Assembly (NCBI GenBank): GCA_012719495.1
Contig: JAAYAG010000011.1
Coordinates: 1 to 64,000, forward strand
DNA: 64,000 bases
DNA from: Bacteroidales bacterium
Lineage (GTDB): Bacteria > Bacteroidota > Bacteroidia > Bacteroidales > Prolixibacteraceae
Reading direction: 5' to 3'
Each line of letters begins with the position of its first letter. Within the stretch, counting starts at the first letter, position 1. The notes beneath the pieces are model-generated. The model was not told the origin of the DNA. It did no database searches and saw only the letters and a list, made by a program, of their open reading frames with translations. This document shows, piece after piece, positions 28,524-53,011 of this stretch. The translations under genes were made by a program, and so were the position numbers.

Positions 28524-29312
28524 TCAAAATTCTAGTTCCAAAAAACGAAACTGCTTTTTATCTGAATCGAGATCGGGCAACAACTCATTCTTAACCCAAA
28601 CATAGTCAGGGTACTCTGCCAGAATCTGCAAATAAAGCTTTCTTGCTTTCTCTTTATCTCCCTGACGGGCATACACCTGGCCAAGCCACGCATACACATT
28701 AAGGTACATCCAATGATTTGGGTCGGTTTTCCGATAAATTTCAAGAGATTTTTCAAAAAGCTCTGCGGCCCTTTTCTTATCGCCACCAACAAACGATGGC
28801 CTAAAATACAGCGAATTAGCCAACTCATATAGTGGCATAGGTTCGTTTTTATGATACTTTATTGCGTTATCGACAGCATCTTTATTATCCCCTCCCAGAT
28901 ATATAGCCTTAAAAGGCTGCAATCCAATTGCATACCCTACCGTAGCGGCCTTGAATGCCCAAAGGGTTGCATTTTTAGGCTGCTTTGCAAGCCGCGAATC
29001 AACATGCTCCAGAAACAAATCGAGTTCTTTTCTGGCCAACGCTTTTTCATCCTTTCCAATGAGGTAGCCCGTTAGCCCATATTCTCCATAGAGCAATTGA
29101 TCATCTTCTGCTTCGGAAATTTTTGCTGCACGAAGACTATCAACAAGGTTTTTCCATGGCCCCATCTCTCCTCTCAGATACAAATGCTGAAAGCGAAGCT
29201 TAAGGCTATCAACATCCTGTGCAACAACTTGCTGGGGCAAAGCAAGCACAAGAATACAAATAGCCACTGCCTCTGTAATCTTTATTATATCTGATATTCT
29301 CTTCCTTTCCAT
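28524..29312 (-). CDS. exported TPR protein at the end of the carotenoid-modification operon
   Basis: An N-terminal hydrophobic stretch (AVAICILVLALPQQVVAQ, about residues 15-32) looks like a signal peptide, so the protein is probably periplasmic. The body is helical with TPR-like units, clearest near the C-terminus (GDKKRAAELFEKSLEIY and GDKEKARKLYLQILAEYPDY). No enzyme motif is visible. Its start overlaps the end of the glycosyltransferase gene by 28 bases, so it is translationally coupled to the carotenoid genes. It could scaffold pigment assembly or be a passenger; function unknown. Confidence 0.72.
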   Translation of the reverse strand: MERKRISDIIKITEAVAICILVLALPQQVVAQDVDSLKLRFQHLYLRGEMGPWKNLVDSLRAAKISEAEDDQLLYGEYGLTGYLIGKDEKALARKELDLFLEHVDSRLAKQPKNATLWAFKAATVGYAIGLQPFKAIYLGGDNKDAVDNAIKYHKNEPMPLYELANSLYFRPSFVGGDKKRAAELFEKSLEIYRKTDPNHWMYLNVYAWLGQVYARQGDKEKARKLYLQILAEYPDYVWVKNELLPDLDSDKKQFRFLELEF

Positions 29313-30382
29313 TCAATAAATCCTTTTCGGTTATTTTTTATATTTCGATAGGCAATTATTGTCAACGCAAGCAATTGCCTGAAGTAAAAGCGGTAGTTCT
29401 TACCTATCGGCTGACGACTAAGATATGAAAATTGACCCCTCATTATCAACTCAATAACAAAAGCCAACAACGCAAACCATGGCGATAAGAGGAAAAACAA
29501 AGCCGGAACACGTATCCATGAGATAAGGACAAAAAAGAACATCCAACACCTGCTGCCTCCAAAATATTGATGAATATTTCGGGCAAAACCGTTAACTGCC
29601 TCGTTATATTCAGTATACATTCGACAAGAAACATCTCTATTTCCTAACAAAACTGCCAGTCTTAATTTTTTCTTTTTCACCATACGGGCAATGGTGATAT
29701 CCTCAACATTAGCTCCTTTCACCATCTGATGCCATAAATGTTCCTGATAACTTTTTGTTTCGAAGAACATAACCTGTCCGTTAGCAGCAGAAAGTGAGGG
29801 AAACCATCTCATTCGCACAAGCGGCAAGGGCAAAAATGAAAGCAAAATCCAGTTCATAATCGGAACAGTACACCATTCTCCGTTTGAAATAATTTGCTGC
29901 TGAGGAAAAACAGAAAGCAATGCCAACTTCCTTCGATAGGCAAAAGAAACTAAGTAATTTATTAACAAAGCACTAACTCGCACATCAGCATCGAGATACA
30001 GCAAATAATCACCTGTGGCTCTTTGAGCCAATTGGTGGCAAGCATAATTCTTACCCCCCCAACCTTCTGGCAATTTTTCCCCTAAAAACCAGTTGAAATT
30101 ACTGTTTGCCTCTTGGAAATCAGACAATATTTTAGAGGTCCCATCGGTTGAATGGTCGTTGCATACAATAACTTCCAGATTAGGATAAACACTAACCGAT
30201 AGGTCGGAAAGCAAATTGGGAAGGTTAGCTTCTTCATTTCGGGCAGGAATCAACACTGAAACTTTTGGCAAATAATCTCCGGAGTTCGTCTTTGGCAAGA
30301 ATGGCTTCGATAACATATTGGTTAATACCACCATGAATCGCAGCATCAACATTATCAACAATATGTATCCTATATAGATCAT
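29285..30382 (-). CDS. membrane glycosyltransferase family 2, probable carotenoid glycosyltransferase
   Basis: A GT-A fold glycosyltransferase is flanked by membrane helices (first at about residues 2-22, more near the C-terminus). The N-terminal strand VSVLIPARNEEANLPNLL, the VCNDHSTDGT loop and the metal-binding LDADVRVS are typical of GT2. Context (hydratase and CrtD upstream, acyltransferase next door) suggests it adds a sugar to a carotenoid tertiary hydroxyl, like CruG of cyanobacteria. I place the start at 30382 (MIYIGYILLI) rather than ten codons upstream, because that gives an ATGA overlap with the acyltransferase stop. The sugar donor and exact acceptor are unknown. Confidence 0.82.
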   Translation of the reverse strand: MIYIGYILLIMLMLRFMVVLTNMLSKPFLPKTNSGDYLPKVSVLIPARNEEANLPNLLSDLSVSVYPNLEVIVCNDHSTDGTSKILSDFQEANSNFNWFLGEKLPEGWGGKNYACHQLAQRATGDYLLYLDADVRVSALLINYLVSFAYRRKLALLSVFPQQQIISNGEWCTVPIMNWILLSFLPLPLVRMRWFPSLSAANGQVMFFETKSYQEHLWHQMVKGANVEDITIARMVKKKKLRLAVLLGNRDVSCRMYTEYNEAVNGFARNIHQYFGGSRCWMFFFVLISWIRVPALFFLLSPWFALLAFVIELIMRGQFSYLSRQPIGKNYRFYFRQLLALTIIAYRNIKNNRKGFIEWKGREYQI

Positions 30383-31002
30383 TCGGTTCGTTGTGCATGT
30401 TTTTCCAAACACTCAGCATAAAAAGTATTGTAGAGATTCTCAACGTTTTCTGTTGAAAAATCATCTTCATCGCTATTCACTTCCTTCAGATAGAAAAATA
30501 AGCTTGGTTTTCTGTTTGAAAAATAATCGACCATGGCAACATAAAACAACAATTGACACGAGGGTTTTTTACGCAAAATCTTTTCAACACCACTTGCGAA
30601 CGAAAATCTAGTATTATATAAGCTATGAAGAATGCCTTGCGGAAAAATGAGAACCATATTTTCTTTGCTTTCCAACAAACATGCAGCATAATTTAAGCTT
30701 TCAACAATACTTCGCGAACCCGGGTTTACCGAAAAAGCGCCAGCCTTTGAAAACATTTTTCGCCGCTGAAGCTGAGATTCCAACATCATGACAAAAAAAT
30801 GTTTTTTTAGAAAACGGTTGTTCAAATACAGCCCGAAAAAACCATCCCACCAACTAAAATGATTTCCAATAACCAAACTTCCCGCAGGTTTACTCTCCCA
30901 CTTTCCCGATACCGTTATCGAATGAAAATCGTTGCGTATAATACGCAAAATATACCAATTGAAGAAACAGGTAACCAATGAGTTATGTTGGGCAGTAATC
31001 AT
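30379..31002 (-). CDS. PlsC-like acyltransferase, probable carotenoid glycoside acylation
   Basis: This 207-residue acyltransferase carries the catalytic HxxxxD in NHFSWWDGF (about residue 48) and a second conserved block VLIFPQGILHS (the PlsC FPEGTR-like site, with Gln in place of Glu). That size and set suit a lysophospholipid-type acyltransferase. Between a hydratase and a glycosyltransferase of carotenoid type, it may instead esterify the sugar of a carotenoid glycoside, as the unrelated CrtO does in staphyloxanthin synthesis. Its start overlaps the stop of cruF by 4 bases (ATGA), and its own stop does the same with the glycosyltransferase gene. Confidence 0.8.
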   Translation of the reverse strand: MITAQHNSLVTCFFNWYILRIIRNDFHSITVSGKWESKPAGSLVIGNHFSWWDGFFGLYLNNRFLKKHFFVMMLESQLQRRKMFSKAGAFSVNPGSRSIVESLNYAACLLESKENMVLIFPQGILHSLYNTRFSFASGVEKILRKKPSCQLLFYVAMVDYFSNRKPSLFFYLKEVNSDEDDFSTENVENLYNTFYAECLEKHAQRTE

Positions 31003-31655
31003 CTTAGAAAGAGATTTAGAATAGCAAAAAAGACAAACTGAGCTATAAAAATCCGGCCAGCTATTCTATTTTCTGTTTTTATTTGGAACAATTCGAATGC
31101 TGAAATAACGAGGGCAGCTACCATAAACCAAACAACATAATTTTGCATCGGGATCTTCGTGAAAACCCACGACCACATGTCGGTTTTCATGGCTACAGGT
31201 TCCATTACAAAATCATAGACAGTCATACACAAAGCCCCAAGTACAACGGTGTATTTTCGGGTTACAGTATTCGACCGCAATAATTCAACGATTCCATAAC
31301 AGAGCATCAACCAGTTAAAACCAATGAGCAATGGGGTTTCGAAAAGCTTAACCGACAACGATTTTCCATAAAAATATTCTCCAAAAATCACCCCCGTATT
31401 AACTCCAACTGCTTCAACAGCAAAAGTGAAAACAACAACTGAAGCAAAAAACAACCAATGCTTCCGATTGTGTGGCTTATGAAATAAAAAAAGCAGGAAC
31501 AGATTAACAATCAGTGAAACAGGAATAAGAACCTCGAAAAGTTGCCTCGTTTGAGGAATCAAAAAACCTGAAATTCCCACGATATAAAAAATTATGAGAA
31601 ACTTTGTGGCCTCTTCAGCAGGTAAAGTCTTGAAGTATTTTACTATTTTACTCAT
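30999..31655 (-). CDS. cruF: carotenoid 1,2-hydratase, CruF/bisanhydrobacterioruberin hydratase family
   Basis: This membrane protein of 218 residues has six or seven hydrophobic helices and belongs to the DUF422/CruF group that adds water to the end double bond of acyclic carotenoid ends, making a tertiary 1-hydroxyl. The conserved acidic and aromatic features are visible in VEAVGVNTGVIFGEYFYG and in YDFVMEPVAMKTDMW. It lies 15 bases after crtD, whose product needs a 1-hydroxy substrate, so the two steps fit in sequence. The reaction is inferred from the family. Confidence 0.87.
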   Translation of the reverse strand: MSKIVKYFKTLPAEEATKFLIIFYIVGISGFLIPQTRQLFEVLIPVSLIVNLFLLFLFHKPHNRKHWLFFASVVVFTFAVEAVGVNTGVIFGEYFYGKSLSVKLFETPLLIGFNWLMLCYGIVELLRSNTVTRKYTVVLGALCMTVYDFVMEPVAMKTDMWSWVFTKIPMQNYVVWFMVAALVISAFELFQIKTENRIAGRIFIAQFVFFAILNLFLR

Positions 31656-31670
31656 ATATTCAACGTGTTA

Positions 31671-33125
31671 CTATTTAATCAATTGGGTTGCAATTTTAGC
31701 CGATGCCAAGCATAAAGGAATGCCGCCTCCGGGGTGAACACTTCCACCCGCAAAGTAAAGGTTTTTATAATGCCGGCTATAATTGGGGTGACGCAAAAAA
31801 GCGGCAAGAGCCCCATTCGAGCTATGCCCGTATAATGAACCATTTACCGATCCGGTATTGGCTTCAATATCAACAGGCGTCACAATACGTTCATTAACAA
31901 TATGCTTTTCAACATCAATACCCAAATGCGATGATATTTTTGACAAAATAACTGACCGGGCTTTAGCCGTTTCAGCAGCCCAATCTTGCCCAACATTTTC
32001 AGGGGCATTAACCATTACAAACCAATTCTCACACCCCTCAGGTGCATCAGATTGAACCACTTTATTGCTAATAAAAATATAAACTGTAAGGTCGTTGCCA
32101 AAATGTTTCTTTTGAAAAAGGGCATCAAATTCGGCCATGTAATCGGCACTAAAAAGAATGTTGTGTAAATCAAGCGATGACTGACACGAAACACCCCAAT
32201 AAAAAATTAAGGCCGACGATGAACGTTCCCGCTTTTCAATACGCTTCAACATCTTCTTTTCAGGCAAAACAGATCGGTAGAAATAGGCTACATCAATAGA
32301 GCTAAGCACAACATCGGCAGGAAAATTCCCCACAGATGATTCTACCGAAGTTATTTTTTTCTTATTGAAGCGAAGACCAGAAACAGTAGTATTATAATGA
32401 AAACGAACACCTTGCTCTAATGCCAATCGCTCAAGGGCCTTAACAATCCCATACATTCCATTGGTTGGAAAAAAAGCACCAGTATTATGCTCCAAGTGTG
32501 CAATCATGTTCAAGGTAGCAGGAGCACGGTAAGGATCACTGCCATTGTACGTTGCATACCGATCGAAAAGCTGTACCAACGGAGAGTTACCAAAGGTTGA
32601 ATTATTTCTCTTATGCATCGATGTAAATGCATCGAGGCGATGAAGTGCTTTCAGGCTTTTTCGTGCAGAAACCCCAAAATAACTTGACAGTTTATGTATC
32701 GAACTAAAAAGGAAAAAATCGCTTGTATAATGATATAAAAATGACTGCCGGTTAAGATAGCGTTCAATGGTTTTTCTGTCAGCCCCAAGGCGAATAGCCT
32801 CTGAAACAAACCGTTGTGTATCACTCCACGCTTTCAGTACCGATCCATCAGCAAAAAAGTACTGGCAAGTAACATCAAGTTGATGCACGTTCAAGTAATC
32901 AGTAGAAGATTTACCAAACAGCGAGAACAATTCATCAACCAAAGCCGGGAGCGTAAACAACGAAGGCCCCATATCAAACCGAAACCCATCAACAGTGAAC
33001 TCAGATATTTTTCCACCTGAACGATACGACTTTTCGAGTATTTCAACATCATAACCTTTAGCAACCAAGCGCAAAGCCGAAGCAATGCCACTTATTCCCG
33101 AGCCTATGATTATCGCTTTCTTCAT
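31671..33125 (-). CDS. crtD: 1-hydroxycarotenoid 3,4-desaturase (CrtD type)
   Basis: This FAD-dependent CrtI-family desaturase has the dinucleotide-binding motif IIGSGISGIASALRLVAKGY at the N-terminus and the carotenoid-desaturase C-terminal signature NLYFAGGSVHPGGGIPLCL. It resembles Bacteroidota CrtD rather than CrtI in segments such as FDMGPSLFTLP, QLFDRYATYNGSDPY and SALIFYWGVS. It should introduce the 3,4 double bond next to the 1-hydroxyl made by CruF. It heads a five-gene minus-strand operon and diverges from crtI-crtB. Assignment to CrtD rather than a second phytoene desaturase rests on similarity by eye plus the hydratase neighbour. Confidence 0.85.
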   Translation of the reverse strand: MKKAIIIGSGISGIASALRLVAKGYDVEILEKSYRSGGKISEFTVDGFRFDMGPSLFTLPALVDELFSLFGKSSTDYLNVHQLDVTCQYFFADGSVLKAWSDTQRFVSEAIRLGADRKTIERYLNRQSFLYHYTSDFFLFSSIHKLSSYFGVSARKSLKALHRLDAFTSMHKRNNSTFGNSPLVQLFDRYATYNGSDPYRAPATLNMIAHLEHNTGAFFPTNGMYGIVKALERLALEQGVRFHYNTTVSGLRFNKKKITSVESSVGNFPADVVLSSIDVAYFYRSVLPEKKMLKRIEKRERSSSALIFYWGVSCQSSLDLHNILFSADYMAEFDALFQKKHFGNDLTVYIFISNKVVQSDAPEGCENWFVMVNAPENVGQDWAAETAKARSVILSKISSHLGIDVEKHIVNERIVTPVDIEANTGSVNGSLYGHSSNGALAAFLRHPNYSRHYKNLYFAGGSVHPGGGIPLCLASAKIATQLIK

Positions 33126-33368
33126 TTACTTCAATAAATATTCAATTTTGATAAACAAAACAGAGAAAAACTAGTTTATTTTTTATCTCTAAATCGAAAA
33201 TTAAAAAACAACTCTGGTATGAATCTAAACAAACAACAGAATAAATTTCTATGAGCCTAAAAAAATAAACACACAAAAACTATGTATAAATTATGCTTAT
33301 TTTTTTAATTCATCATTTTCGAAGCGTAATTTAAGTTAAATTGTAGATGTAAAAAAATAAAACCTGAA
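33126..33368. promoter_or_regulatory. divergent control region between the two carotenoid operons
   Basis: This AT-rich stretch of 243 bases must hold the promoters for both crtD (minus) and crtI (plus). I find no perfect TAnnTTTG; the best -7 candidate for crtI is TTAAATTG near 33336. No palindromic operator or riboswitch was recognised. Confidence 0.4.
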
Positions 33369-34862
33369 ATGAAACAAAAAGAAGTTTTGATTGTGGGAAC
33401 TGGCTTAGCAGGATTAGCCTCGGCATTGCGTTTAACCGCAGCAGGCTACTCTGTTACAATGGTTGAAAAGAACAATCAGCCCGGAGGCCGCCTCAACCTG
33501 CTTGAAAAAGATGGATTTAAATTTGATCTAGGACCAACATTTTTCAGCATGAGTTATGAGTTCGACGAATTGGTGAAAAGTACAGGAATTGAATATCCTT
33601 TTGATTTTATTGAACTTGACCCTCTGTTTACAGTCAATATTGACGGAAACCCTAAAAATTACACGATTTATAAAGACATTGAAAAACTGGCCTCACAATT
33701 CGAGAAAATTGAACCCAATTTTAGGGGAAAGATGGAACATCACCTAAAAAAAACCGGCACACTCTATCACGATACCGAAGATAAAATTGTGCATCATAAT
33801 TTCAATTCGTTTGCCGAATATGCCGGTCAATTAGTGCGAGTTCCGCTAAAACATAGTCCTTTGCTTTTAAAAACTATGTGGCAAGAATTATGTGGCAGTT
33901 TCGAGTCGAAAGAAGCAAGAATGATTTTCTCGCTGGTTGGTTTTTTTCTGGGCGCAACACCCTTCGATACGCCTGCCGTGTATTCACTGCTCAATTATAT
34001 CGAACTGAAACACGACGGGTATCATAATGTACGTGGCGGAATGTACGAAATTGTCAATGGATTAGTGAAAATACTTCAACAAAAAGGAGTTAAAATTCAT
34101 TACTCGACAGAAATTGTTCAGGCAGAAACCCAAGACAAAAAAATCAATGCACTAATAGATCAATTTGGAAATCAATGGAAAGCAGACTATTATATTATAA
34201 ATTCAGATGCCGCATGGTTTAGGGGTAAAGTTTTCAATAGAAAAAAATATAATGAAAAACGGCTCGATAAGATGAAGTGGACCATGGCTCCGCTTACCAT
34301 TTATCTTGGTCTGAATGGAAAACTCGATAAGCTGCAGCACCACAATTATTTCCTCGGAAATAACTTCGACCAGTATGCCAAAGGGGTATTTAAGAATAAG
34401 GTATCTTTCGAGAAACCATACTATTACGTAAACGTCCAGTCAAAAAACAACCCAGAATATGCCCCAGAAGGAAAAGAGAGCCTCTTCATCCTTTGCCCAT
34501 CGCCAGACCTACGGTTTAAGCCAGACTGGAGCGACAGTGAAGAAATTGCACAAAACATAATCGACGATCTTTCAACACGAACAGGCTACCCGATAAACGA
34601 AATGATTATCAGCAAAACGGTGCTTACCCCCGTGCATTGGGGAAAAATGTTTAACTTGTACAAAGGAAACGGACTTGGGTTAGCTCATGACATGAACCAA
34701 ATCGGTTGGTTCAGGCCACACAACCAAGATGAAAAATTTAAAAATGTTTTTTATACCGGAGCCTCAACCATACCAGGGACAGGATTGCCAATGGCCGTAA
34801 TAAGCTCAAAACTAACAACTGAAAAACTTTTTAAATATGATGGAAACCTTCAGACAAAATAA
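33369..34862 (+). CDS. crtI: phytoene desaturase
   Basis: This FAD-dependent desaturase of 497 residues should convert phytoene in several steps toward lycopene. The N-terminal FAD loop is LIVGTGLAGLASALRLTAAG, followed by GGRLNLLEKDGFKFDLGPTF, and the C-terminal signature is FYTGASTIPGTGLPMAVIS. It overlaps crtB by 26 bases, the classical crtI-crtB coupling. Its divergence from the CrtD-like gene suggests that one operon makes the C40 backbone and the other modifies it. No cyclase, ketolase or hydroxylase gene is present in the window. Confidence 0.92.
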   Translation: MKQKEVLIVGTGLAGLASALRLTAAGYSVTMVEKNNQPGGRLNLLEKDGFKFDLGPTFFSMSYEFDELVKSTGIEYPFDFIELDPLFTVNIDGNPKNYTIYKDIEKLASQFEKIEPNFRGKMEHHLKKTGTLYHDTEDKIVHHNFNSFAEYAGQLVRVPLKHSPLLLKTMWQELCGSFESKEARMIFSLVGFFLGATPFDTPAVYSLLNYIELKHDGYHNVRGGMYEIVNGLVKILQQKGVKIHYSTEIVQAETQDKKINALIDQFGNQWKADYYIINSDAAWFRGKVFNRKKYNEKRLDKMKWTMAPLTIYLGLNGKLDKLQHHNYFLGNNFDQYAKGVFKNKVSFEKPYYYVNVQSKNNPEYAPEGKESLFILCPSPDLRFKPDWSDSEEIAQNIIDDLSTRTGYPINEMIISKTVLTPVHWGKMFNLYKGNGLGLAHDMNQIGWFRPHNQDEKFKNVFYTGASTIPGTGLPMAVISSKLTTEKLFKYDGNLQTK

Positions 34863-35673
34863 CTTAACCTGCAGTATTAACACCACCCGTGCATACAGCA
34901 CGTCGTTTTCGCTGGGGGTAAAGCTTATTGGAAAAGAATACCGCGAACATATTTACCGCATCTATGGTTTTGTTAGGTATGCTGACGAAATTGTCGATAC
35001 TTTTTTTGGCTTTGACAGAGAAACCCTTTTTCGTGAATTTAAAGAAGACACATACAAAGCCATCGCCCGAGGCATAAGCTTGAACCCAATCCTCGATAGT
35101 TTTCAAAAAACAGTGAACGAATGCCGTATCGATCGAGAACTGATTGATTCCTTTCTCGACAGCATGGAAATGGATTTAAAATATTCTGAATATACCAACG
35201 ATCAGCTTCAGACATACATATACGGATCAGCAGAAGTAGTTGGCCTAATGTGCCTTAGAGTTTTTTACACCAATAACGAAAACGAATACAACGAACTAAA
35301 GTACCCGGCAAGAAAACTTGGAGAAGCTTTTCAGAAAGTAAATTTTTTGCGCGATGCACAGGACGACTATGCCAACAAAGGGCGCATATATTTTAAGAAC
35401 ATCGATTTCAACAACTTTTCGGTGGAAGCAAAAAAACAAATTGAAGACGACATTCAGTTCGATTTTGATGAAGCATACAAAGGAATTGTCAAACTGAAAC
35501 CTGCCGCACGGTTAGGGGTATATCTGGCTTATCGGTACTATCTCAACCTATTTTATAAAATTAAGAATGCACGCCCTGAAGAAATACTCAAGCAACGCTT
35601 TCGTATATCGAATCGCCGCAAAGGGGCACTAATGTGTAAGGCATTAATCCGAAATGCGATAGGCATATTGTGA
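34837..35673 (+). CDS. crtB: phytoene synthase
   Basis: This squalene/phytoene synthase-family enzyme joins two geranylgeranyl diphosphates head to head. The two aspartate-rich motifs are present: YADEIVDTF (DxxxD) at about residue 50 and NFLRDAQDD at about residue 170. SFSLGVKLIGKEYREHIYRI near the start is typical. The start overlaps the end of crtI by 26 bases. At 278 residues it is a normal length. C30 (dehydrosqualene) activity cannot be excluded from sequence, but the neighbouring hydratase and CrtD favour C40. Confidence 0.93.
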   Translation: MMETFRQNNLTCSINTTRAYSTSFSLGVKLIGKEYREHIYRIYGFVRYADEIVDTFFGFDRETLFREFKEDTYKAIARGISLNPILDSFQKTVNECRIDRELIDSFLDSMEMDLKYSEYTNDQLQTYIYGSAEVVGLMCLRVFYTNNENEYNELKYPARKLGEAFQKVNFLRDAQDDYANKGRIYFKNIDFNNFSVEAKKQIEDDIQFDFDEAYKGIVKLKPAARLGVYLAYRYYLNLFYKIKNARPEEILKQRFRISNRRKGALMCKALIRNAIGIL

Positions 35674-45677: not shown

Positions 45678-46808
45678 CTAATATTTATGAGAAGTATCTT
45701 CCATCTCGGTTTTATCTATCTTCTTATTGTTGATCGATTTCCAAGCGTACCAGATATAAGCCGCGACAAAAGGTACCAACAACGATACATACGACATAAC
45801 ATTCAGCGTAAAATGACTCGATGAGCTGTTACGAATGGTAAGCGACGACTGCAAGTCACTGATTGAAGGGTAATAACTTGTGTTATTGTATCCGGCAATC
45901 AGAAATAGCGAGAATACAACCAATACAGTACCTGTACCAGAGAACCAAATACCTCGCCCAACTTTGAAAAACAAATCGTTAGCTATACCCCATACAACCA
46001 TCACCACTCCGGCAAGGAATAAAATCAGCACTAAAGGCATTTCGAGTAGATTATGTAAGTATTTATATTTTTCAAGCGAAACCTCAAGTGTGTCGGCATT
46101 GTATGAGAAACCATCCTTAACAAGCAATATCACAAGAAAATACAAAAAGAAAACCAAAAACAACACAGCGTTATACGCTAGGTGTTTTCTCGAGCGGATA
46201 ACAATCTCATCATCTTCGATCGAGTTTATAAAATACAACAGTCCAAGAACACGGACCAAGAAGAAAACAGCTAACCCTAGGGCCACATTATGAAAAACTG
46301 CCACAGCCTCGAGCCCACGCGATGCGCCTTGCCATATTACCTGATTGTAATCGTTGAGCGAAAAACCAGCACCGTTAAAAAAAGTACCTACTGCTGTACC
46401 TATCAGTATTGGCCCCATCAATCCATTGATAAAGAGAAATATCTCATAGGTTTTCTTTCCAAGAAAATTAGCAGGTTTTGAGCGAAACTCATACGACACA
46501 GCTTGCAAAATAAACGAGAACAAAACGGCAATCCATACCCAGTAGGCCCCTCCAAAACTTGTAGCATAAAACAGTGGAAACGAGGCAAAAAAAGCTCCAC
46601 CAAAAGTAACCAAAGTAGTAAACGTGAATTCCCACTTCCGCCCCAGGGTGTTCACCAGCATAGTTCGCTGCATCTCGGTTTTACCAATGGTAAAAAGCAA
46701 CGATTGCCCGCCTTGAACAAACATAAGAAATACCAGCAACGAGCCTAGCAACGAAATAATTGCCCACCAATATTCCTGTAAGAATGAATAACTTATCGCA
46801 GCAATCAT
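45678..46808 (-). CDS. cydB: cytochrome bd ubiquinol oxidase subunit II
   Basis: This 376-residue integral membrane partner of CydA, with about nine helices, has family features that include WWAIISLLGSLLVFLMFVQG near the N-terminus (the CydB W-x-x-L-x-G-F-like start) and FGGAYWVWIAVLFSFILQAV with RSKPANFLG. It overlaps the cydA stop by 4 bases (ATGA), and a strong Shine-Dalgarno-like AAGGAGG in the last cydA codons precedes its start, unusual among genes here. Together they form a high-affinity oxygen-reducing quinol oxidase. Confidence 0.95.
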   Translation of the reverse strand: MIAAISYSFLQEYWWAIISLLGSLLVFLMFVQGGQSLLFTIGKTEMQRTMLVNTLGRKWEFTFTTLVTFGGAFFASFPLFYATSFGGAYWVWIAVLFSFILQAVSYEFRSKPANFLGKKTYEIFLFINGLMGPILIGTAVGTFFNGAGFSLNDYNQVIWQGASRGLEAVAVFHNVALGLAVFFLVRVLGLLYFINSIEDDEIVIRSRKHLAYNAVLFLVFFLYFLVILLVKDGFSYNADTLEVSLEKYKYLHNLLEMPLVLILFLAGVVMVVWGIANDLFFKVGRGIWFSGTGTVLVVFSLFLIAGYNNTSYYPSISDLQSSLTIRNSSSSHFTLNVMSYVSLLVPFVAAYIWYAWKSINNKKIDKTEMEDTSHKY

Positions 46809-48379
46809 TTTGAGCCTCCTTCCACTTCTTTAGGTCCTATTTTAATTTGCTTAACCATAATTCCTATCTCAGCAATGAGCAGAGTAGTGAAAATAACGGC
46901 AAAAAGCACGAAAGTAATTTTCACCGATGAAGTGCTAATATTCGTCACGGCAGTTGAAGTTGTCATTAAATCCTGAATAATCCATGGCTGGCGGCCAACT
47001 TCGGCAACCACCCACCCCAGCTCTGAAGCAAGATATGCCAGCGGAATGGAAAACAAGGCAATCCACAAGAACCAACGCTGCTTTTCAAGCGATCCTTTTA
47101 TCAGCCACCAGAAAGCCAGTACAAACAAAACAAGGAAGAAAACGCCAAGCATCACCATAATATGAAATGCATAAAACGTAAGGGCGATGTTGGGAATCAG
47201 ATAATTTACATCTTTGATGTGCCCGTAACCCAAGTACTTAAAATTGTTCGATTGGAAGCTGTCGCTAATCAGCAATGTGCGTAATTCAGTGGCTTTTTGC
47301 AGATCACCGCTTTTTTTGGCCTCTTTAAATTCGCTTAGAGTCGACAAAGCAAGTTTCCCGCGTTCAATTTTTTCTGCAACAGGAAGTAACCCTTGCTGTT
47401 CGTTTCCCCCAATAATATCTTTTACCCCTGGCACATAGGCATTAGGGTCGTTTGCTGCCAAAATGGAGAGGAATTTCGGAATTTCAAATTTAAAAACAAA
47501 GTCTTTCAACTTGCTGTATTCCGGGTCGGCTTCGCTGTTCGACAATAATCCAAAAACTTTAATGGCCACTCCATTGCCGCCTTCATAAAGCCCTTCCATA
47601 GCGGCAAATTTCATAGGCTGAACTTTGTACACCTGCTTAGCCGAACCATCGCCGGTGCCAATAACTGCAAGCGTCGATACTATTCCAAAAATCGAGGCCA
47701 CAAGAATACTTTTCCGGGCTAACACAATATGCCGTTTTTTTAGCAGAAACCAAGCCGAAACACCAATCACAAAAACTGCCGAAAGAACAAATCCCGATGT
47801 AATGGTATGTAGAAATTTATTTACTGCTACAGGAGAAAATAACACATCCCAAAAACTAGTCATCTCGTTTCTTGCTGTTTCGGGATTAAATGTTGTTCCA
47901 ACAGGGTTCTGCATCCACCCGTTGGCCACCAAAATCCACAAAGCCGACAGGTTAGCCCCAATGGCAACCAGCCACGACGAGAGTAAATGAAATTTGGGGC
48001 TCACTTTATTCCATCCGAAAAACATTACGGCAATAAAAGTCGATTCCATGAAAAAGGCCATAATGCCCTCAATGGCGAGTGGCGCACCAAAAATATCGCC
48101 CACAAACCAGGAATAATTCGACCAGTTGGTGCCAAATTCAAATTCGAGTATTATACCAGTTGAAACACCAATAGCAAAATTTATCCCAAAAAGTGTCATC
48201 CAGAATTTGGTCATTTTTTTCCATTCGGTATTTCCGGTGCGAACATAAATCGTTTCCATAATGGCAATCATGAATGTTGTACCCAATGTTAACGGAACAA
48301 ATAACCAGTGGTACATTGCCGTTAACGCGAATTGCGCACGCGACCAGTCAACTAACGAAAGATCGATTGATTCAAACAT
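46805..48379 (-). CDS. cydA: cytochrome bd ubiquinol oxidase subunit I
   Basis: This is the haem-carrying subunit that oxidises quinol and reduces oxygen at the cytoplasmic membrane. The haem b595 ligand His sits in ALTAMYHWLFVPLTLGTTFM, and ASELGWVVAEVGRQPWIIQD contains the conserved GRQPW. The periplasmic Q-loop region is altered from the E. coli form: about residues 250-375 carry a Bacteroidota-type insertion with LSILAANDPNAYVPGVKDII. At 524 residues it is complete. It lies 6 bases after the DUF4492 gene and overlaps cydB by 4 bases. Confidence 0.97.
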   Translation of the reverse strand: MFESIDLSLVDWSRAQFALTAMYHWLFVPLTLGTTFMIAIMETIYVRTGNTEWKKMTKFWMTLFGINFAIGVSTGIILEFEFGTNWSNYSWFVGDIFGAPLAIEGIMAFFMESTFIAVMFFGWNKVSPKFHLLSSWLVAIGANLSALWILVANGWMQNPVGTTFNPETARNEMTSFWDVLFSPVAVNKFLHTITSGFVLSAVFVIGVSAWFLLKKRHIVLARKSILVASIFGIVSTLAVIGTGDGSAKQVYKVQPMKFAAMEGLYEGGNGVAIKVFGLLSNSEADPEYSKLKDFVFKFEIPKFLSILAANDPNAYVPGVKDIIGGNEQQGLLPVAEKIERGKLALSTLSEFKEAKKSGDLQKATELRTLLISDSFQSNNFKYLGYGHIKDVNYLIPNIALTFYAFHIMVMLGVFFLVLFVLAFWWLIKGSLEKQRWFLWIALFSIPLAYLASELGWVVAEVGRQPWIIQDLMTTSTAVTNISTSSVKITFVLFAVIFTTLLIAEIGIMVKQIKIGPKEVEGGSK

Positions 48380-48385
48380 AGATGT

Positions 48386-48598
48386 TTATTTTGAGTTAGT
48401 TATGTTTTCAAGCACATGTGAGCCCCGCTCAGCATCAGTATCGAAGTTTTTCTTCAGGAAATTTGGGAAAAAAATCAGCTTCATTATTACAAAGAAGATA
48501 AACAGCTTAACCAGAATAACAATCCACACCGACTTTCCCCAAGTCATGCTTTTAAATCCATCATAGTAAAACCTGAATACCCGTTTAACGATGTTCAT
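48386..48598 (-). CDS. DUF4492 small membrane protein of the cytochrome bd operon
   Basis: This 70-residue protein with one membrane helix (VWIVILVKLFIFFVIMKLIF) begins MNIVKRVFRFYYDGFKSMTW, the typical DUF4492 start. DUF4492 proteins usually stand right before cydA in Bacteroidales and are thought to be part of the bd oxidase assembly, though this is not shown by sequence. I place the start at 48598; 23 extra in-frame codons upstream are not family-like. It is the first gene of the DUF4492-cydA-cydB-cydX operon. Confidence 0.85.
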   Translation of the reverse strand: MNIVKRVFRFYYDGFKSMTWGKSVWIVILVKLFIFFVIMKLIFFPNFLKKNFDTDAERGSHVLENITNSK

Positions 48599-48685
48599 TC
48601 TTGCTGAATTTAGGGTGTTTAAATTAATCTTTATACGCGAGAAAACAAAACATTTTTTACAAACCAAATGTGACTAACGCAAGAA

Positions 48686-48812: not shown

Positions 48813-50063
48813 TTACGATATTCCTACCACTGCTTTTTCCTTACCGAAAATATAACCTTCAATAGTTTTCATTAACGATATACGACTCGGATCTGAATTA
48901 TTACGTCTCTTACGAATGAAAGAATACCTGAATGGGGAGTGCTGCTCGAATGCAGAGGAATATACCGGCGAGAAAAATTGAACATTCAATGCAACGGCCT
49001 CACTAAGCATCGAGACTACACTCTTCTCCATCAGACCCCTTACAGAAGGCGTAGCACTGGAGCGATAACAATAATTGATTTTTTCCAATACAGAATGCGT
49101 AAACGACAGGGTCCGGTTGGTCAATTCTTCGAGTTTACCAGAAAGGGCACCTCGGGTAAAAATTGTTTCAAGCTGTCCCGAACAATCCTCATTAACATCC
49201 TGTATATCATCTATAAACTGCAACAATGTTCCAAAACCAAAACAAAACCATTCTTGTTCAACGGTCATATCTCCACGAATAAGGTATCCGTCGGCTACAA
49301 CAGAAGTGCCCCCCTTTGCGATACAAACAGACAACAAATCATTGTCAGTCAACGTAGAATCCTTACTCACCAACTGAATACTCCGGGTTTGAGCATCGTG
49401 AATAGCAACAAGGCTTTCGTATACTTTAGGGTAATTTTGGCGGGGCCACTCAATTTCAATCATCGAGACCAAATCAAAGATCTTCTGTTCGTAATTATTA
49501 ACAGCTAATACATTATGCCCATGAAGCCTTGCCGAGAACCGGTTACTGAACGAAATCTTTTCCGATTTGGAAACAGATACATCATCAAGATAGTTATCGG
49601 TATAGGGATATAACATACTGTAAGCAAATGCCGCTGGGCCAACACGAACCGGCTCATCCATTAAAATCTGTAAGCTATTTATAATCCACAAATTACGACA
49701 CGCCTGAAAAATATCATCCATGCTTACAGATGGGTCGAAATTCCGGGCCATGTTCATAAACTCCTTGGTAACACTGGTGAAACCACGCCCCGAGAAGACT
49801 GAAAATTCATCATCATGAAAATCGAAGATATGCTTAAATATCCCGACAACTCGTTGCTTGGTATTCAAAGGAAGATTTGAGCCCCCAAAAACATCTTTAC
49901 CAGTCACTGAGACTTCTCTTTTTGTTTGCTTCATAAATTGCTCAAGCGCTTCTTCGCGTTTAATCTTCTCCTCATGACTAATTACCTCTCCCAACTCAGG
50001 GAAACGAGTATGAGAGTTATTCCATAGTGTGACAAATTCTTCTATATACAATTCGACATTCAT
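48813..50063 (-). CDS. divergent class I isoprenoid synthase-like protein
   Basis: This mostly helical protein of 416 residues has no close family that I recognise by name, but it carries two acidic motifs in the right places for the terpene synthase fold: DNYLDD at about residues 156-161 (compare DxxxD of squalene/phytoene synthases) and DDIQDVNED at about 285-293 (compare the second D-x-x-E-D motif). KGGTSVVADGYL just before the second motif resembles the helix break region of such enzymes. This supports magnesium-diphosphate chemistry on a prenyl substrate, as a cyclase or coupling enzyme. Product unknown. It is not part of the carotenoid cluster. The next gene upstream on the same strand is a thioesterase, 145 bases away. 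Confidence 0.62.
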   Translation of the reverse strand: MNVELYIEEFVTLWNNSHTRFPELGEVISHEEKIKREEALEQFMKQTKREVSVTGKDVFGGSNLPLNTKQRVVGIFKHIFDFHDDEFSVFSGRGFTSVTKEFMNMARNFDPSVSMDDIFQACRNLWIINSLQILMDEPVRVGPAAFAYSMLYPYTDNYLDDVSVSKSEKISFSNRFSARLHGHNVLAVNNYEQKIFDLVSMIEIEWPRQNYPKVYESLVAIHDAQTRSIQLVSKDSTLTDNDLLSVCIAKGGTSVVADGYLIRGDMTVEQEWFCFGFGTLLQFIDDIQDVNEDCSGQLETIFTRGALSGKLEELTNRTLSFTHSVLEKINYCYRSSATPSVRGLMEKSVVSMLSEAVALNVQFFSPVYSSAFEQHSPFRYSFIRKRRNNSDPSRISLMKTIEGYIFGKEKAVVGIS

Positions 50064-50208: not shown

Positions 50209-50634
50209 TTATTCATTTGAAAGACGAGCTTTGGAAACTTTCTTAAGCGCTTCGGTAATTTCGGGAGAAACAGATAGGCGCCCATTAATAAGACTAGTGG
50301 TTGTAACTATCCCTTTTAGACAAAGTTTCTCGTCGGGTAGACGGTATATGTCCTGATAAAAAACATATTTTACGCCTTCGCTCTCAACCCGCAGGCGAAC
50401 AACAAAAGAATCGCCACTACGAAGCGAAGTTTTGTACGACAAGTCGACTCGGGCTACAACAACAAGTATTCCCCTACTGAAAAGATCGGCAAAATCGAGT
50501 CCAATGGTCTTTATAAATTCATGCCGTGTATGTTCAAGATAATTCTGATACACTGAGTTATTTACAACCCCCTGAAGATCACATTCATAGTCGCGAACTA
50601 TGAACGAAAGTTCGTAATCATATTGTTGAGTCAT
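50209..50634 (-). CDS. hotdog-fold acyl-CoA thioesterase (4HBT/YbgC type)
   Basis: This 141-residue hotdog protein contains the 4-hydroxybenzoyl-CoA thioesterase signature VRDYECDLQGVVNNSVYQNY with the catalytic-type Asp, followed by LEHTRHEFIKTIG. It should hydrolyse an acyl-CoA in the cytoplasm; the acyl chain is unknown. I place the start at 50634 (MTQQYDYELS); 18 extra upstream codons are hydrophobic and unlike the family. It lies between the DUF362 gene and the isoprenoid synthase-like gene, all on the minus strand. Confidence 0.85.
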   Translation of the reverse strand: MTQQYDYELSFIVRDYECDLQGVVNNSVYQNYLEHTRHEFIKTIGLDFADLFSRGILVVVARVDLSYKTSLRSGDSFVVRLRVESEGVKYVFYQDIYRLPDEKLCLKGIVTTTSLINGRLSVSPEITEALKKVSKARLSNE

Positions 50635-50710
50635 ACTTTTAATACTTATAAAAAATGGAATGGCAGGCACGAGCCAAAACCATTCCATTTCAATATTTTA
50701 CAATTTTATA

Positions 50711-52627
50711 CTATTCAATAACCGACATCTTTCCAGAAAGGAAATAATAGCCTTTTACATTTGATACCTTAAGACGATATGTGTATTGACCTGCAGATTG
50801 AGGCAACCCGTTTTGTATGTCCATCAAAACATTGTGATCACCGCTGTTCAATTTCCCTAATGAAAGGGTTGACACATTTCTGCCATCGAGTGAGAAAACC
50901 TGAACATCAACAGTCGATGCCATTTCGAGCGAAAACTGAAGTGTTGTCGATTCTTTCACTGGATTAGGAAAGTTAATTACTAATGAATTTGCCGGTGCTT
51001 TGTACTCTGTTTTACCAACAGAGGTAGTCTTATACAACTCAATACCTTTCCCATCAGGTGAAATATTTCTCGAGTATTTCTTGTCAGAAGCATTGTTCCA
51101 ATGTTCGTGTGTACCAAGGCTACCTAATGCAGAACCATCATCTTCAGGATCGTAAACAATATCAGAAGGTCTGCTGGCAATGTCAGCCGCCTGATGAAGA
51201 TAATCATCAACTCCATTGAAGTGAGGGAAAGGCCCTTTGTCATCGGTAATTTCACCACCTTCGTATTCATTGTATTCATCGAATTCATAATAAAGGAAAT
51301 CGTAACATACCGATTCGATAGCCACAGGGTCAAACGAAGTGAATAATGAATTTGGCCAGTCATTATTAAAAGGTTGCATCGAAAATTTCACCGGTGGATG
51401 TCCCCAATTGGTTGAGCCCCACAATCCATCAACAAGATACAAAATCGTTTTTCCGCCTAGGTCTTGATGCCCCATAATGTCGACAAAACAACGGTAAACT
51501 CCATAGTCTCCATTTATATTTTCTCCGGCACCAAAGGGGGTCGGTAAAGATTCGTGCCAGTCACCATTAGCATAATTTTGCCCGCTAAATGTGTTTATAG
51601 TTCCAACATGATTTTTTGCGCAAATAGAAATACCGGCTCTGTGATGTTTCTTAAATACAGGAATATTAATAAGATAGGTTGCATCGACAAACTCTGCAGG
51701 TAATTCAATGGCATCTGAAATGCCATCGCTATAATGAAATACTTTATTGCCCGACGAAGATACCCTATATTGCCCCCAGCCTGTTCCCATATAGTTAACA
51801 TCAGGAAAATCATCGTGGCACCGGTTGTAGGTTAAATCAGTCATTGTTGTTCCCGGGTCACCTATATAAATATCACTCTCAGCAACACCAGCCACGTTAA
51901 CCAGCTGTTCAATAATAAGATAACAAAGATGCGGCGACGTGTTTACATTCTTTTCTTTAGGCGCATTTCCGTTAAGCCCATTCAAATTTATCTTTATAGC
52001 GATTGCTTCTCCCTTTGAATACCCTACATTCCCACGACCATGAGTCCGGTTATGATAATGGAATATTGAATCCCATGCAGCAGCGTCGTTATCGGTACCT
52101 GTAAGTTTTCGTAATGAGGCCGATAGCATTGTAGAAACCACTTCCTGATTAGTATTCTTATCGTCGGACCAGAAATCATTTCTTCCGTTTGAACATTTTT
52201 CATTTGTTGCATTTACATCGTGTACCCATACTACCCTACCTGGGAAAATACCTTTTGCTTCACCGACAGGTTGATTAACTGGCTGATCTTCGGCCAACGG
52301 GTATGCCTTGGCTTTTTCTGTACTCCCAACAATTGCAACCCCTCCAGCAATAAGTCCAAGAAGAACAAAGCCAAAAGCAGCTATATATTTCGAGCGTTTA
52401 AACCGGTCTTTGGCATGGTGATAAACCACAGCTAAAGAGCCTACTCCAAGCAAGTAACATACAAACGAAGATGCCAAGGGTGCCGCAGCCTTCATACATG
52501 GGTACTGTGCTCTGCTAGGCTTAGGTATAACCCTTACAAGAAACCAGACCAGTGAACCTAATCCGGTAATTAAAAAGATGGTTCTGAACCAATATTTCTT
52601 AAAAAAAGTAAATAACTTGAATAACAT
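50711..52627 (-). CDS. membrane-anchored DUF362 protein with T9SS C-terminal domain
   Basis: Three hydrophobic helices occupy the first 110 residues (FRTIFLITGLGSLVWFLVRV; SFVCYLLGVGSLAVVYH; AAFGFVLLGLIAGGVAIVG). Residues about 130-520 resemble DUF362, with the glycine/asparagine-rich KGEAIAIKINLNGLNG and IYIGDPGTTMTD. The last 85 residues look like a T9SS sorting domain (VINFPNPVKESTTLQFSLEM, then a YRLKVSNVKGYYFLSGKM end). A sorting tail on a protein anchored by several N-terminal helices is odd. A near-perfect Shine-Dalgarno GGAGGAG sits 8 bases before the ATG at 52627, which decides this start over one 72 bases upstream. Function unknown. Confidence 0.8.
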   Translation of the reverse strand: MLFKLFTFFKKYWFRTIFLITGLGSLVWFLVRVIPKPSRAQYPCMKAAAPLASSFVCYLLGVGSLAVVYHHAKDRFKRSKYIAAFGFVLLGLIAGGVAIVGSTEKAKAYPLAEDQPVNQPVGEAKGIFPGRVVWVHDVNATNEKCSNGRNDFWSDDKNTNQEVVSTMLSASLRKLTGTDNDAAAWDSIFHYHNRTHGRGNVGYSKGEAIAIKINLNGLNGNAPKEKNVNTSPHLCYLIIEQLVNVAGVAESDIYIGDPGTTMTDLTYNRCHDDFPDVNYMGTGWGQYRVSSSGNKVFHYSDGISDAIELPAEFVDATYLINIPVFKKHHRAGISICAKNHVGTINTFSGQNYANGDWHESLPTPFGAGENINGDYGVYRCFVDIMGHQDLGGKTILYLVDGLWGSTNWGHPPVKFSMQPFNNDWPNSLFTSFDPVAIESVCYDFLYYEFDEYNEYEGGEITDDKGPFPHFNGVDDYLHQAADIASRPSDIVYDPEDDGSALGSLGTHEHWNNASDKKYSRNISPDGKGIELYKTTSVGKTEYKAPANSLVINFPNPVKESTTLQFSLEMASTVDVQVFSLDGRNVSTLSLGKLNSGDHNVLMDIQNGLPQSAGQYTYRLKVSNVKGYYFLSGKMSVIE

Positions 52628-52634
52628 TATATTC

Positions 52635-52642
52635 TCCTCCAA
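52635..52642 (-). promoter_or_regulatory. strong Shine-Dalgarno sequence of the DUF362 gene
   Basis: On the minus strand GGAGGAGA lies about 7 bases upstream of the ATG at 52627, an unusually perfect ribosome binding site for Bacteroidota, where such sites are rare. Confidence 0.6.
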
Positions 52643-53011
52643 AAATGAATTTATACTAATATTGTTTCTGTTCAAAAAACCAAAGACAAAGCCCTGCATT
52701 GCTTGGTTTTTTATAAAAACCCTTAAAGATTCGAAAAAAATACCAGAAAAAAAAGGAACAATGTCCTTTCATTAATTATATAAATCGTGTTTAAATAAGT
52801 TCTCATTCTAAGGCAATTTCTTATGGGCATGCTAATCATATTGTTTTTTAATCTTGTCTATTTTAACATATACAATTGATAATTTTGCTATTACCATATA
52901 AAAAAAACGAAAATAAAAAAAAAGACATGAATGAAAACTTAATATGACCTATTAAAAAAAACACCAAAAAAACATTGTTTTATGAAAAAGAATGCAAGAC
53001 TCATGAAAGAC
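52643..53011. other. AT-rich intergenic region
   Basis: I see no gene in these 370 bases, which contain long A-runs. On the minus strand AAAGGA and TCCTTT (52752-52769) around a 6-base loop, then eight Ts, could be a weak terminator for the thioredoxin gene. The DUF362 promoter must also be here but lacks a clear consensus. Confidence 0.4.

Follow-up and report, generated by a model that had tools for sequence, protein, structure and literature searches.

A candidate undescribed branch of class I isoprenoid synthases in Bacteroidota

Introduction

The carbon skeleton of terpenoids is set by class I isoprenoid synthases. In this superfamily, two aspartate motifs hold Mg2+ around a prenyl diphosphate, and the departure of the diphosphate leaves an allylic cation, to which the prenyl diphosphate synthases then add IPP. 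In Bacillus, a class IB synthase feeds a relative of the squalene-hopene cyclase. An enzyme from a family that is absent from the databases searched here may make a terpenoid that nobody has looked for.

Here, we analysed a gene on a 64,000-nucleotide stretch of DNA from a Bacteroidales bacterium of the Prolixibacteraceae (contig JAAYAG010000011.1 of assembly GCA_012719495.1; hereafter the window), for which an original prediction, made from the letters of the window, had proposed an unrecognised class I isoprenoid synthase-like enzyme.

Results

The proposed ORF is a real, conserved gene, whose coordinates had been given exactly (Table 1), and the alignments of most relatives start near its first methionine and run along its length. 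In a sample of the window's own family, a match was found in 91 of the 140 genomes (70/103 among the high-quality ones), at one place in 88 of the 91 positive genomes; split or partial genes occur as well, G022 and G980 being examples. The encoded protein was rightly called unrecognised, given that it passed no curated cut-off in Pfam or NCBIfam, and the same profile scans agree with the statement that it does not look like CrtB, IspA or any named cyclase. For three proteins (that of the window and those of loci L099 and L178), PHROGs gave no score better than E 0.1 and PADLOC gave no match, and phmmer with the 416-residue protein returned nothing meaningful among PDB chains. Other weak family matches of single members, for example to a Gag1-like clamp (9.3e-4), SagH (0.0034) and BREX-5 PglX (5.3e-4), were taken as chance. 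Within the open-access PMC literature, no paper on this family was found by title; the NCBI name for similar proteins is, we assume, 'class 1 isoprenoid biosynthesis enzyme'. As Pfam, NCBIfam, PHROGs and PADLOC hold no convincing match, profile-based genome mining would miss the branch.

Table 1. Coordinates of the gene, its predicted elements, its neighbours and the clusters mentioned in the text. Positions are those of the window unless a locus is named.
Feature	Position	Strand	Remarks
Gene for 416-aa class I isoprenoid synthase-like protein (target)	48813..50063	-	ORF, ATG start
Predicted catalytic core, residues 80-365	48969..49826	-	AlphaFold2 pLDDT 94.5, pTM 0.91
First aspartate motif DNYLDD, residues 156-161	49581..49598	-	end of predicted helix 143-160
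KGGTSVVADGYL, residues 250-261	49281..49316	-	at the place of the prenyl diphosphate synthase KT motif
Second aspartate motif QFIDDIQDVNED, residues 282-293	49185..49220	-	aligns with DDxxD of 4f62_A and IspA chains
Hotdog thioesterase gene	50209..50688	-	145 bp upstream of target; Pfam 4HBT_2 1.5e-11
DUF362 protein	50711-52699		beside target
DUF4492-cydA-cydB cytochrome bd genes	45678-48667	-	145 bp downstream of target, same strand
Carotenoid cluster	29285-35673
Five-gene cluster	L225:2820-8946		window genome G000, contig C126, another contig than target
Five-gene cluster	L228:10680-16914		genome G036
Five-gene cluster	L229:8109-14353
Five-gene cluster	L230:5601-11020		4Fe-4S gene not seen there
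Genes upstream of a relative	L102:481-4156		Anaerolineales contig, one strand

Around the window's own genome, 23 of 61 genomes carried a match, all of them from the same family (23/37, own included), and none did among the 24 nearby genomes from other families of the order (0/24). A wider sample of the phylum gave matches in 8 of 395 genomes, again with the window's own included, four of which were full length and four weak and over the C-terminal half. Scanning the GTDB species collection yielded 392 confirmed relatives, and the 80 best were retained. Among the groups named in the titles of these 80 are Prolixibacteraceae, Marinilabiliaceae, Labilibaculum, Chloroflexota, KSB1 and Melioribacter; some of the oddly titled relatives may be misbinned contigs, and the cultured Draconibacterium orientale (L072) also has a relative. 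In a sample of Chloroflexota the gene was rare (3/251 genomes, including the one used as the centre of the sample). In a tree of 45 core sequences, made with a quick method without bootstrap, the window's protein stands among Prolixibacteraceae and most non-Bacteroidota rows fall together. The PLSDB plasmids gave no match, and a single match in the INPHARED phages (E 0.1) was taken as chance.

The weak phylum matches (loci L109-L112) led to sister proteins of ~330 aa. In a sample of 295 genomes of the order, 24 matched this short form at E 1.1e-9 or better, a further 3 gave doubtful matches and 4 had the long form, which makes 31 in all. The regions of 20 of these 24 genomes were fetched, and the proteins from 16 of them were aligned with those of L109-L112 (alignment A4, n=20), truncated or masked proteins being left out. 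D97, K181, Q213, D217, D220 and D224 are invariant in this alignment (20/20), and the position equivalent to D285 of the long form is N or D, in 10 proteins each. When compared by hhalign, the short-form profile matched the long-form alignment A2 (described below) at E 2.3e-16 (98.7%) and the long core, A5, at E 4.4e-17 (98.8%; reversed controls of the A5 comparison 0.4% and 0.5%). No plausible family was found for the short form in Pfam or NCBIfam, with weak polyprenyl_synt matches in 5 of the 20 proteins (best 8.5e-4); apart from a few chance matches, most of its PDB matches were to prenyl diphosphate synthases (best E 0.0084). The short form occurs in many families of the order (loci L177-L196 and L109-L112), and many of these proteins carry a C-terminal ICDMEK stretch.

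For the long form, alignment A2 (n=47) combines the window's protein with 44 proteins from the 80 retained loci plus two more; near-copies, truncated proteins and the interrupted L040 were excluded, and the 46 relatives are 32-49% identical to the window's protein. Thirty residues are invariant across these 47 proteins, among them Q282, D286, R123, K169 and R208. The two metal-diphosphate motifs on which the original prediction was built are likewise fully conserved as D156xxxD160 and D285DxxD289xxxD293 (each of these aspartates in 47/47), with N157 and D161 of the first motif in 45/47 and 39/47 members, respectively. They lie ~130 residues apart on separate helices of the predicted structure. 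When the protein was shuffled 20000 times, a D[DN]xxD ... [DN]DxxD pair at a spacing of 80-160 arose in 25 cases. In the stretch noted ahead of the second motif, K250 and the following G251 of KGGTSVVADGYL are found in 47/47, and in a profile alignment the K250 region is partnered by K-T-G of chain 4f62_A. The second DDxxD comes with an upstream K and G-x3-Q in every long member, and its spacing is like that of prenyl diphosphate synthases, namely G, Q four residues later, then DDxxD.

As the original prediction had anticipated, the predicted structure has the all-helical class I fold; models and alignments together make this fold and a putative metal site well supported for the 416-residue protein. 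The full-length model, built from 22 sequences, is all helix (pLDDT 85.4), with helix 143-160 ending in the first motif, K250 within helix 240-263 and helix 268-288 ending in the second motif; the core model was built from 45 sequences. Indirect support for the acidic motifs facing one pocket comes from their place at the ends of two different long helices and from the second motif, which pairs residue by residue with that of a geranyltranstransferase. A Foldseek search with the core found no PDB match under E 0.001 (best E 1.4e-3 and best TM 0.66 among the matches listed), and the best 50 of 678 matches are all class I isoprenoid synthases. The 50 matches listed by VIA-align for the core are also all class I enzymes, at Z 14.9-16.7, which is above the level of Z ~13 given as a warning for common helical arrangements. 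Prenyl diphosphate synthases, MoeN5, diterpene and sesquiterpene synthases and the class IB enzyme appear there with no clear winner: polyprenyl synthase 4jyx (Z 16.7, 4.1 A, 254 residues), two MoeN5 entries (Z 16.4, 3.5 A, 245 residues; Z 16.3, 3.2 A, 238 residues), diterpene synthase 7e4n (Z 16.4, 3.8 A, 257 residues) and class IB synthase 5yo8 (Z 16.1, 3.8 A, 272 residues). As the scores of the class I branches differ by no more than 1 Z unit, the structure does not say which reaction is catalysed.

Among predicted viral structures, the core matched two uncharacterised proteins, A0A481ZCB8 of Pithovirus LCPAC403 (305 aa; E 8.7e-9, TM 0.70, 23% identity) and A0A6G8MX44 of Cedratvirus kamchatka (293 aa; E 1.8e-8, TM 0.70, 19% identity), both known here from the structure match alone, with alignments spanning 281-283 columns. 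These E-values are much better than that of the best PDB entry, while the gain in TM is small (0.70 vs 0.66). On the strength of this one structure search, the family likely has relatives in giant viruses. In IMG/VR, profile searches with A2 and with A3 (the long profile plus three short members) returned 30 and 3 stretches, none of which is a relative; DNA patterns returned 3, 25 and 0 stretches, and hmmsearch of the resulting 28 loci gave one L198 stretch at E 0.0089.

Next to the target, the hotdog thioesterase gene does lie upstream on the same strand, as described in the original prediction, but a functional tie to it is not supported, as 0/80 related loci carry a hotdog neighbour, and it was set aside as evidence. 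A target was called in 78 of these loci; upstream sequence of 1 kb or more is present in 71 of the 78, and 54 extend at least 3 kb to both sides. The commonest neighbour families, one of which is Gfo/Idh and another presumably YebC, are found in 22-23 of 79 loci (the window and 78 of the 80, L067 and L100 being without a called target). No isoprenoid cluster was recognised by eye near the target in 14 loci that come from other phyla or bear odd titles and in 7 regions, nor near the short form in 20 regions and three of those 7. A check of 1000 long-locus and 335 short-locus proteins, with the prenyl synthase and SQS_PSY profiles, four carotenoid-cluster proteins and four five-gene-cluster proteins as queries, matched a single radical SAM protein, which lies in L093.

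Several other genes were noted in passing. The DUF362 protein beside the target carries a type IX secretion signal (over the NCBIfam cut-off and under that of Pfam), and has no counterpart in the 80 related loci. The DUF4492-cydAB operon downstream recurs in 1 of these 80 (L025). On an Anaerolineales contig, three genes on the same strand lie upstream of a relative, and by eye they resemble those of an aminotransferase, a short-chain dehydrogenase and an AONS-type synthase. The carotenoid cluster of the window encodes a CrtD desaturase (over the NCBIfam cut-off), a Caroten_synth protein, an acyltransferase, an amine-oxidase-type desaturase, a phytoene synthase and a glycosyltransferase nearest to HpnB/CruG (under the cut-off).

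Elsewhere in the window's genome, a five-gene cluster codes for a 4Fe-4S protein, a radical SAM protein, a DUF116-prenyl synthase fusion, a toroid protein with a weak prenyltransferase-toroid match, and a squalene-hopene cyclase-like protein (Table 1). It looks like an undescribed terpenoid pathway. The cluster is also present in genomes G036 and G1077, four of its five genes are found in G1075, whose contig ends there, and in G002, G004 and G005 fusion-sized PF00348 frames have a SQHop_cyclase_N match nearby. In G036, the target is 6.7 kb away from the cluster, on the opposite strand and with other genes between; being one case noticed among 71 genomes that hold both, this nearness is about what chance would give and was not counted. 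Across the 140 genomes of the family, 71 have both the target and SQHop_cyclase_N, 20 the target only, 17 the cyclase only and 32 neither (Fisher p 1e-6, uncorrected for kinship); for the target and SQS_PSY, the corresponding counts are 65, 26, 21 and 28 (p 0.001, likewise uncorrected). SQHop_cyclase_N and SQS_PSY also go together in these genomes, and at the level of 23 genera the p-values are 0.013 (target-cyclase), 0.006 (target-SQS_PSY) and 0.023 (cyclase-SQS_PSY). Given that the target goes with both partners, which are themselves paired, the association is not specific to one pathway, and we set it aside as proof of one; kinship and genome size have probably shaped it.

Discussion

We read the long form and its shorter sister form in other Bacteroidota as one branch of the class I isoprenoid synthases that has so far gone undescribed and whose members would depend on Mg and act on one allylic prenyl diphosphate as a terpene synthase or prenyl transferase; we put the probability of this reading at roughly 0.6. 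In such an enzyme, D156/D160 and D285/D289/D293 would hold the Mg2+ ions, which, together with K250 and conserved arginines, would bind the diphosphate group of a single allylic prenyl substrate. The diphosphate would then be pulled off to give a carbocation, and this cation would either be quenched inside the enzyme, yielding a linear or cyclic terpene or a terpene alcohol, or be passed to an acceptor other than IPP. As nearly all members lack two signatures of the prenyl diphosphate synthases, quenching or another acceptor seems likelier than extension with IPP.

These signatures bear directly on the first alternative, that of a divergent trans-prenyl diphosphate synthase elongating an allylic diphosphate with IPP, which we regard as unlikely even though IspA and octaprenyl diphosphate synthases are closest by profile and GxxxQxx[DN]DxxD is common to 47/47 long members, 17/20 short members and 29/33 synthases. 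In profile searches of the PDB, the best match of A1 (22 members) was the geranyltranstransferase 4f62 over the second-motif stretch (E 0.002); it was again the best match with A2 (47 members; E 0.0093) and with A3, where it improved to E 6.6e-5. Since the latter search also gave the chromatin protein RSC8 at 8.7e-4, through the N-terminal region, E-values near 1e-3 are unsafe. Compared directly with 33 prenyl diphosphate synthases by hhalign, the long core scored 28%, A2 12% and the short form 57% (E 1e-4, 251 collinear columns; reversed 0.3%), and the comparisons with class IB (1 sequence), SQS_PSY (5 sequences) and terpene synthases (1 sequence) were weak; with sets this uneven, and known classes scoring at most 1.8% against each other, the class comparison is blunt. 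Judged by these tests of unequal power, both forms are nearest in sequence, among the classes compared, to the trans-prenyl diphosphate synthases, and nearer to these than to the head-to-head or classical terpene synthases with which the original prediction had grouped the protein.

What speaks against elongation is that RR shortly after motif 1 is found in 1/47 long and 0/20 short members vs 32/33 prenyl diphosphate synthases, and GK after motif 2 in 1/47 and 0/20 vs 29/33, with the caveat that this is a pattern test rather than a structural one and that an IPP site could use other residues, such as R123, K169 or R208. The pattern G[GA].[RK].RP is absent from all 47 long and all 20 short members, but only 14/33 of the control synthases match it. 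PF00348 itself gave no match in the window's protein at E up to 10 and weak ones in 4/47 long members (best E 0.004). The window's genome already holds three PF00348 matches, two in separate genes and one in a fusion, which, along with the absence of RR and GK, favours a single-substrate enzyme or another acceptor. Moreover, the gene was not found in 49 of the 140 family genomes, so it is not the essential prenyl diphosphate synthase.

That the enzyme, like MoeN5 or CqsB4, hands a prenyl group to an acceptor that is not an isoprenoid strikes us as improbable to a similar degree. MoeN5 lies within the tie of the best VIA matches and CqsB4 is among the Foldseek matches listed, but other class I enzymes match equally well, and reading the neighbourhoods by eye, with a minority of their genes profile-scanned, revealed no acceptor pathway.

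A head-to-head synthase of the squalene/phytoene type is very doubtful: SQS, CrtM and HpnC are among the Foldseek matches listed, and the spacing argument put forward originally fits this class too, yet the signature NxxRDxxxD occurs in 0/47 long and 1/20 short members vs 5/5 SQS_PSY proteins from related genomes, PF00494 does not appear in the family lists of the 47 members at E up to 10 (1/20 short members has it at 0.018), and hhalign to SQS_PSY reached at most 0.9% with a set of only 5 sequences. Nor do we give much credence to a protein that is no longer catalytic and acts as a subunit or sensor; no conserved cluster was recognised around the gene, but a dead enzyme would be expected to lose the metal ligands and the lysine, which are invariant across phyla at 32-49% identity.

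Building on the reading as a branch of Mg-dependent synthases, a bolder and rather improbable extension would unite the long and short forms with the Pithovirus and Cedratvirus proteins in one ancient, overlooked class, which in many Bacteroidota and some Chloroflexota would make a terpenoid lipid of the housekeeping type. Within the family of the window, such an enzyme could work with the mostly unlinked five-gene cluster, a partnership that we propose on the analogy of the Bacillus class IB synthase and its cyclase relative.

Set beside the described systems, the family resembles each in part. The Orpheovirus terpene synthase 8jw3, a giant-virus class I enzyme, is a far weaker match than the two viral proteins above (E 0.038 in the viral search; 0.022 in another Foldseek search); it is presumably the enzyme of Jung et al. 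2023. The NSE triad [ND]DxxSxxxE of classical bacterial terpene synthases is absent at motif 2, where D289 takes the S/T place and D293 the E place in 47/47 members; the pattern is found elsewhere in the protein in 2/47 long members, and PF19086 matched 1/47 members (best E 0.027) and, in the smaller set, 2/22 (best 0.0028). MoeN5 (5b00, 5b0i) has a like fold (Z 16.3-16.4) at a sequence identity of 10-11%, and no MoeN5-like gene context was recognised around the family's genes. The class IB enzyme 5yo8, a tetraprenyl-beta-curcumene / beta-prene synthase, is the best VIA match of the full-length model, in a tie (Z 15.4, 4.5 A, 295 residues), and the DYLD/NYLD first motif of its class resembles that of the family by eye. 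The class IB signature DYLDNxxD[RQ] was found in 0/47 long members, DUF2600 (PF10776) is not among the families listed for them at E up to 10 and is present in 0/11 genomes, the window's own included, and hhalign of the family to the single 5yo8 sequence gave 0.4%. Compared with the trans-isoprenyl diphosphate synthases (PF00348, for example 4f62), the family mostly has DN instead of DD in the first motif, carries an extra N-terminal region and is nearly always without RR and GK, while it shares with them the common all-helical fold, in which K, GxxxQ and DDxxD line up.
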